Both the position numbers and the translations under genes were made by a program. Under the pieces are notes generated by a model that was not told where the DNA came from, did not search any database, and saw only the letters and a list, made by a program, of their open reading frames with translations. From Desulfoscipio sp. XC116 (lineage in GTDB: Bacteria > Bacillota > Desulfotomaculia > Desulfotomaculales > Desulfallaceae): DNA of 64,000 nucleotides. Positions 986-62,481 of the stretch are shown here, in pieces; within the stretch, counting starts at the first letter, position 1, and every line of letters starts with the position of its first letter. The stretch spans positions 124,001-188,000 of the forward strand of contig NZ_CP156660.1 in assembly GCF_039851975.1 (NCBI RefSeq), given 5' to 3'.

Positions 986-1693
986 ATTTATCCGTGCCAT
1001 AAATAAAAAGCCGGCTGCTGCGCCACAGAGGGCAAAAATTGCCTGGTTGTTAAACGACGCGGGCACCAGCTTTTCAATTACGATAAATATCATGGCGCCG
1101 GCGGCCAGCGCTAAAAGCAGTGCATTTAAGGCAGGTGAAGCTTGCAATATAAATAAACCCAGCAGTGTGCCCAAAGGGGTTACCAGGCTGATTAATCCAT
1201 TGAGGGCAATTATCCGCCCGCCGCCCATGCCGCTGGCTCTCAAAGGGGCCGCGGTAGCCATGCCCTCGGGTATGTTATGCAATCCTATGGCCAGGACCAG
1301 CAGCGGTCCCAGCTGTGCGGAAGTTGAGTAGCCCGCTGCTATGGCAATACCCTCGGGCAAATCATGCAAAGCAATCCCCAGAGCGATTAAGTAACCCATG
1401 CGCAGGTAAATCTGGCTGTTATGACGGCCGGGCATTAATCGGGTTAGTATAAAATCCAGGCCGGTCAGCAGTAAGAAGCCGCCGGCAAATCCAAGCAGGC
1501 AAACGCCCGGGCCGCCGTAGGCCAGAGAAGTGGGCAACAGATCCATGATGACTACTGCTGTCATCACCCCCGAGGCAAGCCCCAGCAGCAGGGCCAGCAC
1601 CCGTTCTTTCATTTGCCCGAACAACATAATTAATGCCGCGCCCAGGCAAGTGCCCAGCCCGGCGACAAGGGCGTAAATTAATATACCAATCAA
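974..1693 (-). CDS. ZIP family divalent metal transporter
   Basis: A 239-residue membrane protein with about eight hydrophobic segments. It contains the two ZIP signature motifs, HDLPEG (helix IV, about residues 109-114) and HNIPEG (helix V, about 139-144), whose His/Glu residues form the binuclear metal site in ZIP transporters. Members (ZupT, GufA) move Zn, Fe or Mn into the cytoplasm. The gene converges on the DMT-type gene with a 12-base overlap and reads away from the L,D-transpeptidase gene upstream (18-base gap), so the two minus-strand genes may be co-transcribed. Metal specificity cannot be read from the sequence. Confidence 0.88.
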   Translation of the reverse strand: MIGILIYALVAGLGTCLGAALIMLFGQMKERVLALLLGLASGVMTAVVIMDLLPTSLAYGGPGVCLLGFAGGFLLLTGLDFILTRLMPGRHNSQIYLRMGYLIALGIALHDLPEGIAIAAGYSTSAQLGPLLVLAIGLHNIPEGMATAAPLRASGMGGGRIIALNGLISLVTPLGTLLGLFILQASPALNALLLALAAGAMIFIVIEKLVPASFNNQAIFALCGAAAGFLFMARINSLF

Positions 1694-1710
1694 TTAATCA
1701 CCTTCCAGTG

Positions 1711-2289
1711 TCAGGGGATGAAAATGGTTTGCCCTATTACTAACCGGTCGGGAGCGATAAGATTATTGATAGCGATTAGTGTTTCCAGATTTGTGTTAAA
1801 GGATTGGGCTATTTTCCACAGGGTGTCCCCGGGTCGGACCGTATATGTTTTGCCGTTGCCGCCGTTGCTGCCGTTGCCGCCGCTTCCGGCTGTGGGCTTG
1901 AAAGCGGGAATTGTTTCTGTTTGGGAACGGTCGTAAATATGTACCGGGGTGCCGATAGGTACTTGGGGAAAGAGTTCTTCAACATGGTAGTTATGCATGC
2001 GGATGCAGCCCAGCGATACGGCCTGCCCGATGGATGAAGGGTTATTGTTGCCGTGAATGCCGTAATTGCCGCCGGGGATAGTCAATCCCATCCAGCGGGT
2101 GCCCAGTACGCCGCCGGGGTTGACCATTTTATTCTTAATTTTGTAGTTGCCCGGAGGGGTGGGCGTGGACGGTTTACCCACGGCTATGGGGTATTCTTTT
2201 ATAAGGTGTTCTCCGTTATAATAATGCAGTTTGCGGGTGACCGTATTGATGGATAAGCGGCCACCGGCCTCAGTCCTGGCAGGTGCCAA
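1711..2289 (-). CDS. L,D-transpeptidase (YkuD) with C-terminal LysM domain
   Basis: 192 residues. Residues 8-120 form a YkuD catalytic domain with the active-site His/Cys block (YGIHGNNNPSSIG, then SLGCIRMHN, catalytic Cys about residue 94). A Gly/Asn-rich linker follows at about 135-147, then a LysM peptidoglycan-binding repeat (YTVRPGDTLWKIAQSFN) to the end. YkuD enzymes make 3-3 cross-links in peptidoglycan, and in Bacillus such proteins are linked to the spore envelope. The start is TTG at 2289, preceded by GAAAGGAGC. No signal peptide is visible, so the mode of export is unclear; upstream sequence gives no better start. The order is unusual in that LysM is C-terminal. Confidence 0.88.
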   Translation of the reverse strand: MAPARTEAGGRLSINTVTRKLHYYNGEHLIKEYPIAVGKPSTPTPPGNYKIKNKMVNPGGVLGTRWMGLTIPGGNYGIHGNNNPSSIGQAVSLGCIRMHNYHVEELFPQVPIGTPVHIYDRSQTETIPAFKPTAGSGGNGSNGGNGKTYTVRPGDTLWKIAQSFNTNLETLIAINNLIAPDRLVIGQTIFIP

Positions 2290-2427
2290 ATAACCACGCT
2301 CCTTTCACCTTAAATGTATGTAGCGGATTGGACAAAAATGTCTTATAACGGATACTTGTCCTTCCGGCATTTTTTGGATATACTTAAAACCGTTAACTGT
2401 GTGCAAAGGATTTGGTGAATAATAAAA

Positions 2428-3285
2428 ATGATGGTAAATGCTTATGCTAAGATTAACCTGGTTTTGGATGTGCTGGGCACACGTACGGACGGGTATCATG
2501 AGCTGGTCACTATTATGCAGACCCTGGAGCTGCATGACAGGCTGGAATTCAGTAAAGCCGGTGCAATAAAACTTGTCGTAGAGGGGGCCGATTTGTCCGC
2601 CGGTTCCGATAACCTGGCTTTTCGCGCGGCCGATTTGCTGCGCCGCCGGTCGGGTTACGCCGGTGGCGCCAATATTAAGCTGGTGAAGCGTATCCCTCTG
2701 GCGGCCGGGCTGGCCGGGGGGTCGGCGGATGCGGCTGCTGTTTTGCGCGGTTTAAATAAACTTTGGGGTTTGGGTATGGAAATGGAAGAGCTGGCGGATT
2801 TGGGCGCCGCCATTGGCTCGGATGTGCCCTTCTGTCTGCAGGGCGGCACTGCTTTGGTGCGGGGGCGTGGTGAAAGAGTCGATCCCCTGCCCGGTTTACC
2901 GCCCTTGGGTGCTGTGCTGGCCAAGCCGCCTTTCGGGGTGAGCACGGCCCGGGTTTATCACCGGTACGATGATATTGTTAAGCCGCTGCACCCGGATGGT
3001 CAGGGTATGCTGCGAGCTGTGCGCGGGAGTGATGTGGGACGTGTGGCTGCCTGCCTGGGTAACGCTTTGGAACAGGTAACGGTTTCCATGTACCCGCAAA
3101 TAGGAGAAATTAAAGAAATTGTAGCCGCGGCCGGTGCTCTGGGGGTTTTGATGAGCGGCAGCGGACCCACAGTGTTCGGTTTGTTTGATGATGAATTTGC
3201 GGCGCGGCGAGCGGCGGATGGGATAAAAAGCGGCGGCTTCAGGGTGTGGGCCACCAGGTTCTGCGATCCCCGGGTCGATCACTGA
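2428..3285 (+). CDS. ispE: 4-diphosphocytidyl-2-C-methyl-D-erythritol kinase
   Basis: 285-residue GHMP-family kinase of the MEP isoprenoid pathway, phosphorylating the 2-hydroxyl of CDP-methylerythritol. Family features: the N-terminal AYAKINLVLDVLG with the catalytic Lys, DGYHEL, the ATP loop PLAAGLAGGSADAAAVLRG at about residues 91-109, SDVPFCLQGGTA at about 131, and the C-terminal MSGSGPTVFG. Length is typical. Start ATG 2428; the next codon (2431) is also ATG and equally possible. It opens the block that in Bacillus runs ispE-purR-spoVG. Confidence 0.95.
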   Translation: MMVNAYAKINLVLDVLGTRTDGYHELVTIMQTLELHDRLEFSKAGAIKLVVEGADLSAGSDNLAFRAADLLRRRSGYAGGANIKLVKRIPLAAGLAGGSADAAAVLRGLNKLWGLGMEMEELADLGAAIGSDVPFCLQGGTALVRGRGERVDPLPGLPPLGAVLAKPPFGVSTARVYHRYDDIVKPLHPDGQGMLRAVRGSDVGRVAACLGNALEQVTVSMYPQIGEIKEIVAAAGALGVLMSGSGPTVFGLFDDEFAARRAADGIKSGGFRVWATRFCDPRVDH

Positions 3286-3355
3286 AGCCTTGCGGGTTTA
3301 ATTGAAATAATGATAAAATATATAAAACAAGTATTCTGAAGGAGGCGGGGGAATT

Positions 3356-39711: not shown

Positions 39712-41007
39712 ATGTCCAAACCGATTGTTTCCGTGGTTAAATTTGATGACCCGTATCAATCACTGCGCCGGTCCCTGGATTTAAGCGAGGGGCTTAAAGG
39801 GTTCAGTAAAGAAGATAAAGTATTAATCAAGCCCAACCTGGTGTCCTGGGATTTTGACCTGCCTTTTCCGCCTTACGGAGTGGTTACCACATCGGCTGTG
39901 ATAGCCGCCCTGGTACGAATACTGGCGGAGGAGGGTTTCACCAGGCTGACTATTGGTGAAGCGCCGTTAATGGTGCCTAAAACTGTGGGGCAGGCTATGT
40001 TCAAAATTTTGGGCTATCACAAGTTAAAAGAAAAGTATGGCGTAGAGCTGGTGGATTTTAACGAAGAAAAGTTTGTTAAAGTAGATTGCGATGGCTTTGA
40101 ACTGTCCCTGGCGGAAAAAGCCCTGGAGGCCGATAAGATAATTGATGTGCCGGTGCTCAAGACCCATAACCAGACCAAGGTTTCTCTGGGTATTAAAAAC
40201 CTCAAGGGCTGTTTAAACCGCAAGTCCAAGATGTTCTGCCACGGCGCCCAAACCGGCCTTGACCACACTTTCCCGCATATTATTGAAAAGCTGCCCGTGG
40301 CGCTGACTATTATCGATGGCGTATTCGGCATGGCCAAGGGTCCGGGACCTACCGGCAAGGCCGAGCGGCTGAATTTATTGGCGGCTTCTCAAGATCCCCT
40401 GTCCGCGGACGTGGTGGGTGCGGCGCTTTTAGGCTATAACGCCGCGGATATTAAGCACCTTGGCTACTTTGCCAAACGCAGCGGCGGCAGTGTTAATTTG
40501 GAAGATATCGACGTGCGGGGAGAAGACGTGGCCGCCAACAGTAAATTCCTGGATTACGACTGGGAATGGACCGCCGACGACACGGGGCCGTTAGGCTATG
40601 TTAAGCGCGGCATCACGGGGCTGGCGGTGCGCAAGTACGACAGTACCATGTGCACGGGGTGCTCCATGTTGTTCAATCCTTTGCTGATTATGCTTATGTC
40701 GGCATTTAAGGGCGAGCCCTTCCCCAATGTGGAGGTGGTCAGCGGCAAAGTGCAAAAGGCCGCGCCGGGTTTTGACAAAACAGTGCTCTTTGGCCGCTGC
40801 GCCTGTTCACTGAACAAAGATAACCCCAACATTAAAAAGGCCATCGCTATTAAGGGGTGCCCGCCCGACCTTATGGAATTTGAAAAGGCGATGCGGGAAG
40901 AGGGCATTATGTGCGACTATAAAGAATACGTGAAATACCGCCATTATATCTATAACCGTTATAAAGCGGAGGATGGTTTTGATATGGGGCTGTTTGACGT
41001 TCAATAG
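39712..41007 (+). CDS. DUF362 family protein with cysteine-rich C-terminal part
   Basis: 431 residues from ATG 39712 (TTGGAGGTG). DUF362 body at about 20-270: VLIKPNLVSW, VVTTSAVIAALVRIL, DVPVLKTHNQTKVSLGIKNL, with GCLNRKSKMFCHG and DGVFGMAKGPGPTG. The C-terminal third has MCTGCSMLFNP, FGRCACSLN and KGCPPDL, scattered cysteines that could bind an Fe-S cluster, although no standard CxxCxxCxxxC ferredoxin pattern is present. DUF362 proteins are often redox-linked. Placed in an acyl-CoA operon it could be an electron-transfer or acyl-CoA-related enzyme; reaction unknown. Confidence 0.8.
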   Translation: MSKPIVSVVKFDDPYQSLRRSLDLSEGLKGFSKEDKVLIKPNLVSWDFDLPFPPYGVVTTSAVIAALVRILAEEGFTRLTIGEAPLMVPKTVGQAMFKILGYHKLKEKYGVELVDFNEEKFVKVDCDGFELSLAEKALEADKIIDVPVLKTHNQTKVSLGIKNLKGCLNRKSKMFCHGAQTGLDHTFPHIIEKLPVALTIIDGVFGMAKGPGPTGKAERLNLLAASQDPLSADVVGAALLGYNAADIKHLGYFAKRSGGSVNLEDIDVRGEDVAANSKFLDYDWEWTADDTGPLGYVKRGITGLAVRKYDSTMCTGCSMLFNPLLIMLMSAFKGEPFPNVEVVSGKVQKAAPGFDKTVLFGRCACSLNKDNPNIKKAIAIKGCPPDLMEFEKAMREEGIMCDYKEYVKYRHYIYNRYKAEDGFDMGLFDVQ

Positions 41008-41046
41008 AGATATACCCCGGCATAGCTCCGGCCTTTATAAAAAACC

Positions 41047-41236
41047 GCTTTCTAAGAGCACACGGTCTTGTGCCGTACGATGAAAGATGCATATGGCAAA
41101 GCAGCGGATGTCCATGGTTGACCCCGCTGGTTGGGGCTAAAGCCTGCGGCCTCATGAGGGGGATGTAAGACTTTGCTTTTGCCGGACGGTTTTCGTTGAA
41201 TTGGGAAGCCTCCGGGCCCGTTTCGGAGGGCTAAGT
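41047..41236 (+). ncRNA. Candidate structured RNA resembling HEARO / IscB-type omega RNA, without an IscB gene
   Basis: The stretch folds into a closed multi-branch layout. CTTTC (41047-41051) pairs with GAAAG (41081-41085) around an ACGG/CCGT hairpin. GCAAAG (41095-41100) pairs with CTTTGC (41170-41175), enclosing CCCC (41121-41124)/GGGG (41132-41135), a GGCTAAAGCC hairpin and CCTC/GAGG. A final hairpin AGCC-TCCG (41206-41213) / CGGA-GGGCT (41224-41232) is followed by AAGTCAATA. The GGCTAAAGCC element and the AGTCAATA-type end recall omega RNAs upstream of IscB (HEARO), from memory. No protein is encoded downstream. The gap 41008-41383 otherwise holds only the terminator. Confidence 0.5.
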
Positions 41237-41265
41237 CAATACCCCGTATTTATATCGAGCAAAAC

Positions 41266-41311
41266 AAAGTAAAAGCCGGACGCGGTTAATTGATCGCCCG
41301 GCTTTTACTTT
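41266..41311. terminator. Bidirectional terminator between convergent operons
   Basis: A 14-bp stem AAAGTAAAAGCCGG (41266-41279) / CCGGCTTTTACTTT (41298-41311); A-rich and T-rich sides serve both the DUF362 operon and the minus-strand acyl-CoA dehydrogenase operon. Confidence 0.88.
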
Positions 41312-41383
41312 ATCAAATTCCAAGGGTGCTGTTGCACTGCACCGTCGTGCGAGCCCATGGCCCCTGACGGCCGCTAACAGAAA

Positions 41384-43207
41384 TTACAGGGCTTCTTCCG
41401 GTATATCAATGGCCGAGGTGTCGCAGTCTTTAATAACTTCGGCAATTCCAAATATTTCGGGCACGATATTACGGATGTAGAACTTGGCGGACTGTACTTT
41501 ACCCTGGTAAAAGGGTAATTCATGGTGGCCTTCGCCCAGTTCCTTGATTTTTTGCATGGCCACGGCTGCCTGGTCAAGCAGCAGGGAGCCGCAGTACAGC
41601 ATGGCGGTGGCGTGCAGTATACGGCTGGAATACAGCGGTACAACTTTGATGTTTTTGGCAAATGTGGCTGCTATGAAACCCTGAATTTCCCGGTAGGCTC
41701 CCATGGCCCTGGCCAGTATTTCATGTTCCCTGCCGAACCCTTCCACATCCTTATTGCCTTCCACCGATGCGGCCAGCTCTTTAAACCACTCGGCAAATAC
41801 CTTGCCCCCGTCCAGGGTCCACTTGCGGCCCACCAGGTCCAATGATTGGATGAAGTTGGTGCCTTCCCAGATGGACAATATTTTGGAGTCCCGGGCGCAC
41901 TGAGCCACGGGGTATTCTTCGGTGAATCCGTAACCGCCGTGTACCTGGATGGCCTCGCAAGTTGTTTGCCAGACCATGTCCGAGATATAGGCTTTGACCA
42001 GCGGAGTGTTTACTTCGATGCGCCGCTTGGCAGCCTTTTTTTCCTCCGGGTCGGGGCTATGGTGGGCCAGGTCTTCGTAATAGCAGGTTTTGGCGATTAA
42101 TGCCCGGCAGGCTTCAACAACCGATTTCTGGAACAGCAACATCCTGCGTACGTCCTCGTGCTGGATAATGGGCATCCGGGGTCCTTTGGGGTTGGAAATG
42201 ACTTTGCCCTGGATGCGTTCTTTGGCGTACTGCAGCGCGTAGTTATAGGCTGCCTGGGCAATGGCCAGAGCGCTGAGCCCGGTGTCAATACGGGCGCCGT
42301 TCATCATGACGAACATTTGAGCCATGCCCTGGGCTTTGCCGTTTTCATCGGGCGGGCTGCCGATCAGTATGCCGCGGCAATTGTCGTTTTCCCCAAAGCT
42401 GAGCATAGCTGTGGCCGAACCTCTTAGTCCCATTTTATGCTCAATGGCTACCGTGCTTACATCGTTGGGCTCACCCAGACTGCCGTCTTCGTTAACCCAT
42501 ATTTTAGGTACGATAAACAGTGAGATGCCCTTGGTACCCGGCGCCGCTCCCTCACACTTGGCCAGCAGCAGGTGGATAATGTTCTCGGTCAGATCGTGGT
42601 CACCGGCGGTGATGAAGCACTTGGCGCCTTTAATTTTATATACCCGCGGGTCGTCGGTGGCATAGGCTTTGGTGGTGATGTCTCCCACATCGGAGCCGCA
42701 GCAGGGCTCAGTCAGGCACATGGTGCCGGCCCATTCGCCGCTGAACATCTTAGGCAGATACAGCTCTTTTTCGGCGTCGGTGCTGAAGGAGCCAATCAAG
42801 TTGCTGGCCCCGCCCACCAGTCCGATGTAAGGGTGAAAGGCCGGGTTGGCCGCGGTGAAGAATTCATCCAGCCAGATGCGCAATATCTCGGGCAGCTTGC
42901 CTTCTTCCTCGGGATCGTACTGGGAGTTGCCAAAACCGTTTTCCTGCATGAAGCCGTACAGCTTGTGGAAAGAAGGGGGCGTGGAGACCCGGCCGTTTTC
43001 AAACCGGGCGCCGATCCGGTCCCCGTCGACGTTGGTAGGGGCGATCATCTCCCTGGCCACCTTCAAAGCCTGGTCCAGCAGCATATCCACGTCGTCCATT
43101 TCATAATTATCTTTAAAGGCGTCTAAATTAAGTATCTTTTCTCCATCCAGCCATTCCTTGATGATGAATTTGTGGTCCCTGTTCGAATAAATAAAGTTGT
43201 TGGACAT
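41384..43207 (-). CDS. Acyl-CoA dehydrogenase (long, about 600-residue form)
   Basis: 607 residues from ATG 43207 (GAAAGGAG before it). Typical ACAD core: AGTMCLTEPCCGSDVGDI (FAD/substrate region), HKMGLRGSATAMLSFG, GARIDTGLSALAIAQAAYNY and the C-terminal CEAIQVHGGYGFTEEYPVAQ followed by DSKILSIWEGTNFIQSLDLV (a Glu-containing catalytic segment). A C-terminal extension of about 130 residues marks the long subfamily. Oxidises acyl-CoA to enoyl-CoA, passing electrons to ETF. Upstream frame to 43405 has no ribosome-binding site. Last gene of the minus-strand hbd-ech-acad cluster. Confidence 0.94.
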   Translation of the reverse strand: MSNNFIYSNRDHKFIIKEWLDGEKILNLDAFKDNYEMDDVDMLLDQALKVAREMIAPTNVDGDRIGARFENGRVSTPPSFHKLYGFMQENGFGNSQYDPEEEGKLPEILRIWLDEFFTAANPAFHPYIGLVGGASNLIGSFSTDAEKELYLPKMFSGEWAGTMCLTEPCCGSDVGDITTKAYATDDPRVYKIKGAKCFITAGDHDLTENIIHLLLAKCEGAAPGTKGISLFIVPKIWVNEDGSLGEPNDVSTVAIEHKMGLRGSATAMLSFGENDNCRGILIGSPPDENGKAQGMAQMFVMMNGARIDTGLSALAIAQAAYNYALQYAKERIQGKVISNPKGPRMPIIQHEDVRRMLLFQKSVVEACRALIAKTCYYEDLAHHSPDPEEKKAAKRRIEVNTPLVKAYISDMVWQTTCEAIQVHGGYGFTEEYPVAQCARDSKILSIWEGTNFIQSLDLVGRKWTLDGGKVFAEWFKELAASVEGNKDVEGFGREHEILARAMGAYREIQGFIAATFAKNIKVVPLYSSRILHATAMLYCGSLLLDQAAVAMQKIKELGEGHHELPFYQGKVQSAKFYIRNIVPEIFGIAEVIKDCDTSAIDIPEEAL

Positions 43208-50363: not shown

Positions 50364-50538
50364 GGCGGGTATTTTAGGCGCTATACTAATTGTCAAAGAA
50401 CACAAGTATACTTACCATGGAACGTATATTGGTGGAATACTTATCGCCCTGCCGGGCGATGCCCCTTTCATCCCGCCTTACAAGGGGGTGGGTTTTCAGG
50501 GGCGGCGTTCTATAAATCTTTCGGGAGGTAGAATCAAA

Positions 50539-62173: not shown

Positions 62174-62391
62174 ATAGAGTAATAATTACGTATGCAACTG
62201 CTGTAGCGATATGCATTTGGTAATAATCTCCCCCAATGCCTAGTTATTATATACCGTTCAGGCAATTGGCTAAGGCAGATCGGAAACACGGATTATTAGA
62301 TTTAAAAGCGCCCCCCTTTATTTTAAACCGGTCTGGTAGTATAATTAGGTAGCGGCGCAAATTAAAGCAAAATAAAATACAGGAAGTCATT

Positions 62392-62464
62392 TGGGGTGCC
62401 GAAAGGCTGAGAGGCGGATGCCAACCCACTGAACCTGCTCTGGGTAATGCCAGCGAAGGGAAAT
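62392..62464 (+). promoter_or_regulatory. TPP (THI-box) riboswitch aptamer
   Basis: Contains the invariant blocks: GGGGTGCC, GGCTGAGAGG, then ACCCACTGAACCTGCTCTGG and GGTAATGCCAGCGAAGGGAA. These are the P2/J2-4 and pyrophosphate-binding regions of thiamine pyrophosphate riboswitches. A terminator follows at 62482-62506. Confidence 0.95.
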
Positions 62465-62481
62465 GCAACTAAGTTATTTGT

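Follow-up and report, generated by a model that had tools for sequence, protein, structure and literature searches.

Positions of about 41034–41239 of the analyzed window (the whole 64,000-nucleotide stretch of Desulfoscipio sp. XC116 DNA) very likely harbor a decayed, non-autonomous, PATE-like element of the IS200/IS605 family, which arose when an IS605-type insertion sequence (IS) carrying tnpA and tnpB lost its interior by deletion. It is an old gene-less relic and a fairly ordinary one, the same kind of thing as the PATEs, or palindrome-associated transposable elements, here in Firmicutes. The element is an orphan belonging to the omega-RNA lineage, and it is probably non-functional now. 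It spans 201 bp, or 206 bp with the TTTAT pentamer counted, and is too short for a transposase gene, displaying no plus-strand ORF of 50 aa. The left end (LE, 41034–41092) abuts the right end (RE, 41100–41239) almost directly on the same strand, the respective HMM matches being eight bases apart, and both ends are shared with IS605-type elements. The following features were distinguished in the window:

41034–41038, plus strand: TTTAT, the pentamer of the left flank or target, presumably the TAM for the cognate TnpB (present at 33 of 34 left ends).
41039–41096, plus strand: LE with a subterminal hairpin (loop CTTGT), partly decayed; from the HMM built with the window copy left out and from covariation.
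41100–41239, plus strand: RE, which would be the omega/reRNA scaffold and equals the region from the tnpB stop to the tip in TnpB-bearing relatives; from the HMM and the covariance model.
41135–41144, plus strand: the GGCTAAAGCC hairpin, at the site of the most variable RE hairpin of the family.
41208–41239, plus strand: subterminal hairpin of the RE together with the right tip, which is degraded (GTCAA for TTCAC).
50413–50516, minus strand: LE of a second family copy, a longer version (HMM, E = 6.8e-27).

What lifts this stretch beyond chance is that it is homologous to a family of dispersed repeats whose hairpins covary. A blastn search against 60 relatives revealed dispersed homologs in three genomes (two places each in G023 and G008, and G039), all belonging to one repeat family and sharing the 5′ end and, where the stretch is longer, the 3′ end as well; matches with E above 0.001 were mostly short and chance-level and were left out of the evidence. 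With the window copy masked, the LE HMM matched 41034–41092 (E = 1.6e-6) and the RE HMM matched 41101–41229 (E = 1.8e-12), collinearly with the LE match; in the reversed window, taken as a control, the best LE and RE HMM scores were 4.8 and 5.9 bits. The RE covariance model (R1), trained on 27 copies, none of them from the host genome, recovered 41100–41239 at 44.1 bits (E = 2e-9), followed at a distance by a second-best score of 10.9 in the window. In an order-wide search with one full copy, including about 48 bases of its own flank, matches at E ≤ 1e-4 were obtained in 30 of 113 genomes; the plasmid and phage collections yielded no match to the element.

The borders of the family are sharp. 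At the left edge, TTTAT was found in 33 of the 34 distinct LE reaching the first position of the model (L084 displays TTTAA), and at the right edge TTCAC was found in 40 of the 44 distinct RE reaching its last position; only matches reaching the model ends entered these counts, a selection favoring conserved tips, and 4 of 48 RE, the window's included, stopped short and hence fell outside the edge count. In the adjoining flanks, both left and right, no column exceeded 0.5 agreement. Near-terminal palindromes are present at both ends, their pairing covarying in the family and decayed in the window copy. In the LE alignment (25 of the 34 distinct left ends plus L083), 94.9% of the cells of the family hairpin are paired and 6 of 10 pairs show both-side changes, with a covariation score of 0.484 vs. 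0.188 in shuffled alignments, although the number of both-side-change pairs taken alone was equalled in 113 of 500 shuffles. Besides the window row, the RE alignment comprised 30 rows, namely the 32 further full-length RE minus the near-duplicates L040 and L139 (the 27-copy version additionally lacks the own-genome rows L003, L081, and L008). Here, 95.2% of the cells are paired, both-side changes occur in 10 of 19 pairs, and the covariation score is 0.360 vs. 0.214 shuffled; when the pairing partners were slid, the LE and RE scores both fell well below those observed. A repeat search over 40990–41340 found no terminal inverted repeats joining both tips, the nearest inverted pair being one of 7 bp (41041–41047 with 41187–41193).

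Against this background, the window copy appears worn. It keeps 7 of the 10 consensus LE pairs and 11 of the 19 RE pairs, compared with 13–19 in the other 30 rows, the former RE figure being possibly an undercount since the window row aligns poorly at the second hairpin. According to the HMM, 14 contiguous model positions and a further 4 are missing from its RE, and the HMM match ends 8 positions early, whereas that of the covariance model is full. The right tip reads GTCAA vs. TTCAC in the family. The first-pass annotation had pointed to the GGCTAAAGCC hairpin (41135–41144) and the AAGTCAATA end (41233–41241), both of which are indeed in the sequence, the latter consisting of the degraded tip and two bases of the flank. 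A long-range closed structure, proposed there as well, found no support in folding: the 190-base stretch gave an MFE of −68.7 kcal/mol vs. a shuffled mean of −65.0 kcal/mol (sd 4.5, z = −0.83), with 32 of 200 shuffles folding at least as stably, and the opposite strand likewise folded no better than shuffles. The two convergent terminators claimed to delimit the segment hold up in part, with a clear 17-bp stem (41266–41311) downstream and only a short CCGG/CCGG stem upstream; the terminator scan listed none in 40800–41500. The downstream region is devoid of a coding frame, as had been stated (no plus-strand ORF of at least 50 aa starts within 41007–41522), and a mechanically called minus-strand ORF of 82 aa overlaps 40907–41155.

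The origin of the element became apparent from the genes found between the same ends in relatives. In L074, L076, and L083, the same LE and RE enclose an open frame of 417–454 aa (stop to stop), and in L075, with the same ends, the TnpB frame is broken into two. All three frames tested (L074, L076, L083) matched NCBIfam NF040570 (guided_TnpB; E = 1e-46 to 4e-45) and exceeded the cut-offs of two Pfam models, OrfB_IS605 and the Cas12f1-like TNB domain, and a phmmer search with the TnpB of one relative listed Cas12f and TnpB structures. Upstream of tnpB, L074 retains a Y1 tnpA remnant in two frames (PF01797, 34.7 and 89.8 bits), and L076 and L083 retain short C-terminal tnpA pieces which resemble that of L074 and lack a Pfam match. 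Hence, the parent was an IS605-type element with both tnpA and tnpB; a TnpB-only (IS1341-type) parent, also considered, is ruled out by these remnants. The copy nearest to such a parent is the following:

L152, about 1329–3339, minus strand: element of 2.0 kb with LE, a Y1 tnpA frame, a 418-aa TnpB frame, and RE.

Its tnpA frame is open and full-length (PF01797, 129.9 bits over 1–121 of 121), with a histidine (HUH) motif that is changed as compared with the other copies; thus, tnpA is damaged in every copy inspected (L074, L076, L083, L152). In the full elements, the RE directly follows tnpB, i.e., it takes the position of an omega/reRNA in the family, the window copy itself being without tnpB. 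Since TnpB is encoded between the same ends in relatives, the 3′ part of the window copy corresponds to the omega/reRNA region of TnpB type. Judging by this position and by the published TnpB biology, the RE would be an omega RNA.

The copies fall into distinct size classes (TTTAT counted): 1.57–1.99 kb, about 384 bp, 175–257 bp, and 53 bp. The window copy (206 bp) belongs to the third class together with L082, L084, L085, L095, L096, L097, and L104. A full-length RE match was obtained in all 11 distinct 380–385 bp copies and in 4 of the 8 short copies, window copy included. The smallest class is represented by two copies of the same makeup (TTTAT, the LE start, one hairpin, and TTCAC):

L007, 1489–1541 (own genome C1:3327244–3327296), minus strand: 53-bp element.
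L111, 331–383, minus strand: 53-bp element.

Among named genomes, 26 stretches show the exact RE hairpin pattern; Desulfofundulus accounts for 10 of them, and others are from Pelotomaculum, Desulfotruncus, Desulfallas, Desulfoscipio, Desulfotomaculum, and Peptococcaceae bins. The exact hairpin is also present in metagenome bins labelled as Actinobacteria and Moorella (L173, L181), which reflects either spread between lineages or binning errors.

In the own genome, the RE model recognized 7 places at E ≤ 0.01; the window copy is the fifth best of these, and three RE are near-intact (144–156 bits). The second LE in the window (50413–50516) is better kept than the copy at 41034–41239; neither the HMM nor the covariance model revealed an RE beside it. 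A search for the TNB domain in this genome returned no match at E ≤ 0.001 and no TnpB was found there at E ≤ 1e-20, a related TnpB used as query retrieving nothing but two pieces, each about 30 aa long. One of these pieces is situated 20 bases before an RE, and the genome harbors a former full element:

L078, own genome C1:1995830–1996090: RE preceded by a 30-aa remnant of the tnpB C-terminus; a 5′-truncated former full element.

Seven Y1 transposase matches are present in the same genome; none of their loci (3.2–3.4 kb) contained an LE or RE at E ≤ 1 within about 1.5 kb of the gene. The suggestion that the RNA could guide a nuclease encoded elsewhere in the genome is thus unsupported, given the lack of TnpB beyond the two pieces and the degraded state of the copy. 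Given the decayed tip and stems and the missing TnpB, a present function is unlikely.

The TnpA transposases of IS200/IS605 elements recognize subterminal hairpins and move single-stranded DNA to a fixed short target. By position, TTTAT would represent the target and TAM, followed by the left hairpin and by the RE as the reRNA scaffold. A trans-acting Y1 TnpA would have placed the element, in single-stranded form, on the 3′ side of TTTAT, and the RE of the element would have yielded a TnpB reRNA with the flank from 41240 on as the guide. By now, the element is presumably immobile and silent, owing to the mutations in its tip and hairpins and to the lack of a remaining TnpB in the genome. As described for ISDra2 (PMC8612924), TnpB with the RE RNA and about 16 nt of flank cleaves the restored donor site beside the target motif. 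The resemblance extends to the RE-derived RNA of ~150 nt following tnpB in ISDra2, with a ~150-bp RE after tnpB in the present family, and to insertion behind a pentamer, TTGAT (the TAM) there vs. TTTAT here (PMC8612924). Apart from the different pentamer, the window copy deviates from the ISDra2 described there in being geneless (PMC8612924).

Of the other readings, the one which fares best, still a very unlikely one, holds that a PATE carries a TnpB-type reRNA which is transcribed and used in trans by TnpB, the element being kept through repair after cutting of the emptied site. The frequent retention of the full-length RE (11 of 11 and 4 of 8 copies in the two classes, see above) and the covariation of its hairpins speak for it. 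So does the co-occurrence with the nuclease: the RE model found copies in 10 of 21 genomes searched, and 5 of these 10 (G008, G010, G012, G019, G023) displayed a TnpB match at E ≤ 1e-20, whereas the RE-bearing G000, G003, G007, G009, and G016 were not among the 28 genomes with such a match, an absence which is weaker for some of them since several are drafts. However, the own genome lacks TnpB beyond scraps, the window copy with its 11 of 19 RE pairs has lost TTCAC, and the pairing may persist only because TnpA needs the hairpins. It is highly improbable that some unrelated protein now makes use of one or more of the TnpB-type reRNA loci of the own genome, where TnpB is gone, or that any of these loci works as a nuclease-free, guide-bearing regulatory RNA.

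Domestication by the host, as a small RNA or a 3′ UTR element of transposon origin, is extremely improbable. It is favored by the location, as the element stands directly behind a gene end, at the TTTAT following the short CCGG stem. Its folding, no better than that of shuffles, argues against domestication, as do the loci around the matches of that gene in relatives, where neither end turned up.

The gene before or the gene after the element has matches in relatives; neither LE nor RE was detected at E ≤ 1 in 15 loci around such matches (L116–L130), some of which are paralogs or matches to the other flanking gene, the downstream sequence being read by eye in five (L116–L120). Hence, the element looks like a lineage-specific insertion. 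In the five relatives compared (L116–L120), the intergenic DNA was too divergent to align and no exact empty site emerged; for another copy, compared in one pair of genomes (G080 vs. G081, L142), the flanks differed and gave no clean empty site. About 305 bases to the left of the element in L045 recur at six further places in the G080 chromosome with 95–100% identity and constitute another repeat family.

HEARO, the omega RNA of IscB, likewise belongs to an element end within the IS200/IS605 superfamily, and it precedes iscB. The first-pass annotation had suggested an orphan RNA of this kind guiding an IscB encoded elsewhere; its orphan position and structured end fit, as does an apparent likeness to HEARO, the left hairpin included, but the idea deserves practically no credence, since HEARO (RF02033) gave no match at E ≤ 10 in 40500–41800 or in the whole genome, nor any at E ≤ 1 when three homologous loci and three tnpB-bearing copies were searched, the IscB domain RRXRR was absent from the whole genome at E ≤ 1, and the related full-length elements carry TnpB. 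Unlike in HEARO, the RNA region of the present family lies after the gene, at the RE. The core of the suggestion survives, namely an orphan derived from an omega/reRNA-bearing transposon end with no adjacent nuclease gene; the annotation would have given way to the lack of a covariance-model hit combined with stems not conserved in other copies, of which the former was observed for HEARO, whereas the stems proved to be conserved. Rfam gave no match above threshold at the element, the six weak matches at E ≤ 10 in 40500–41800 all being far below their gathering scores and none of them HEARO, and no Rfam family convincingly matched the RE in the window, the homologous loci, or the tnpB-bearing copies. 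A group II intron fragment, suggested by the look of the hairpins, was rejected for the lack of an Rfam match. Elsewhere in the window, a TPP riboswitch was recognized at 62382–62478 (plus strand; 66.3 bits vs. a gathering score of 54.3).

The gene-less IS605-type relic remains the preferred reading, and its closest parallel is in Haloquadratum walsbyi, for which the PATEs were named as gene-less, IS605-derived elements with terminal palindromes; some of them arose from IS605-type elements that lost their core, and the forms of this origin include 52-bp terminal-only ones, one of which goes back to a TnpB element (PMC3119063). As portrayed in that paper, the PATEs share with the family considered here the lack of a transposase, the near-terminal palindromes of IS605 type, and the target of 4–5 bp at the 5′ end, and their 52-bp terminal-only forms are paralleled by the 53-bp forms L007 and L111 (PMC3119063). 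At the same time, the host there is an archaeon, and the likeness concerns the features described (PMC3119063). Furthermore, in the present family the RE is retained over its full ~150 bp, rather than as the hairpin alone, in 4 of the 8 short copies and in the 380–385 bp copies.

Overall, a tempting misreading is corrected: gene-less IS200/IS605 right ends resemble orphan guide RNAs, and the present family goes unflagged by Rfam. The analysis also brings to light a series of deletion forms in Firmicutes, both sulfate reducers and syntrophs, with sizes of 1.6–2.0 kb and of about 384, about 200, and 53 bp. Such a series is useful for asking whether the retained reRNA region aids the persistence of gene-less elements with TnpB provided in trans.
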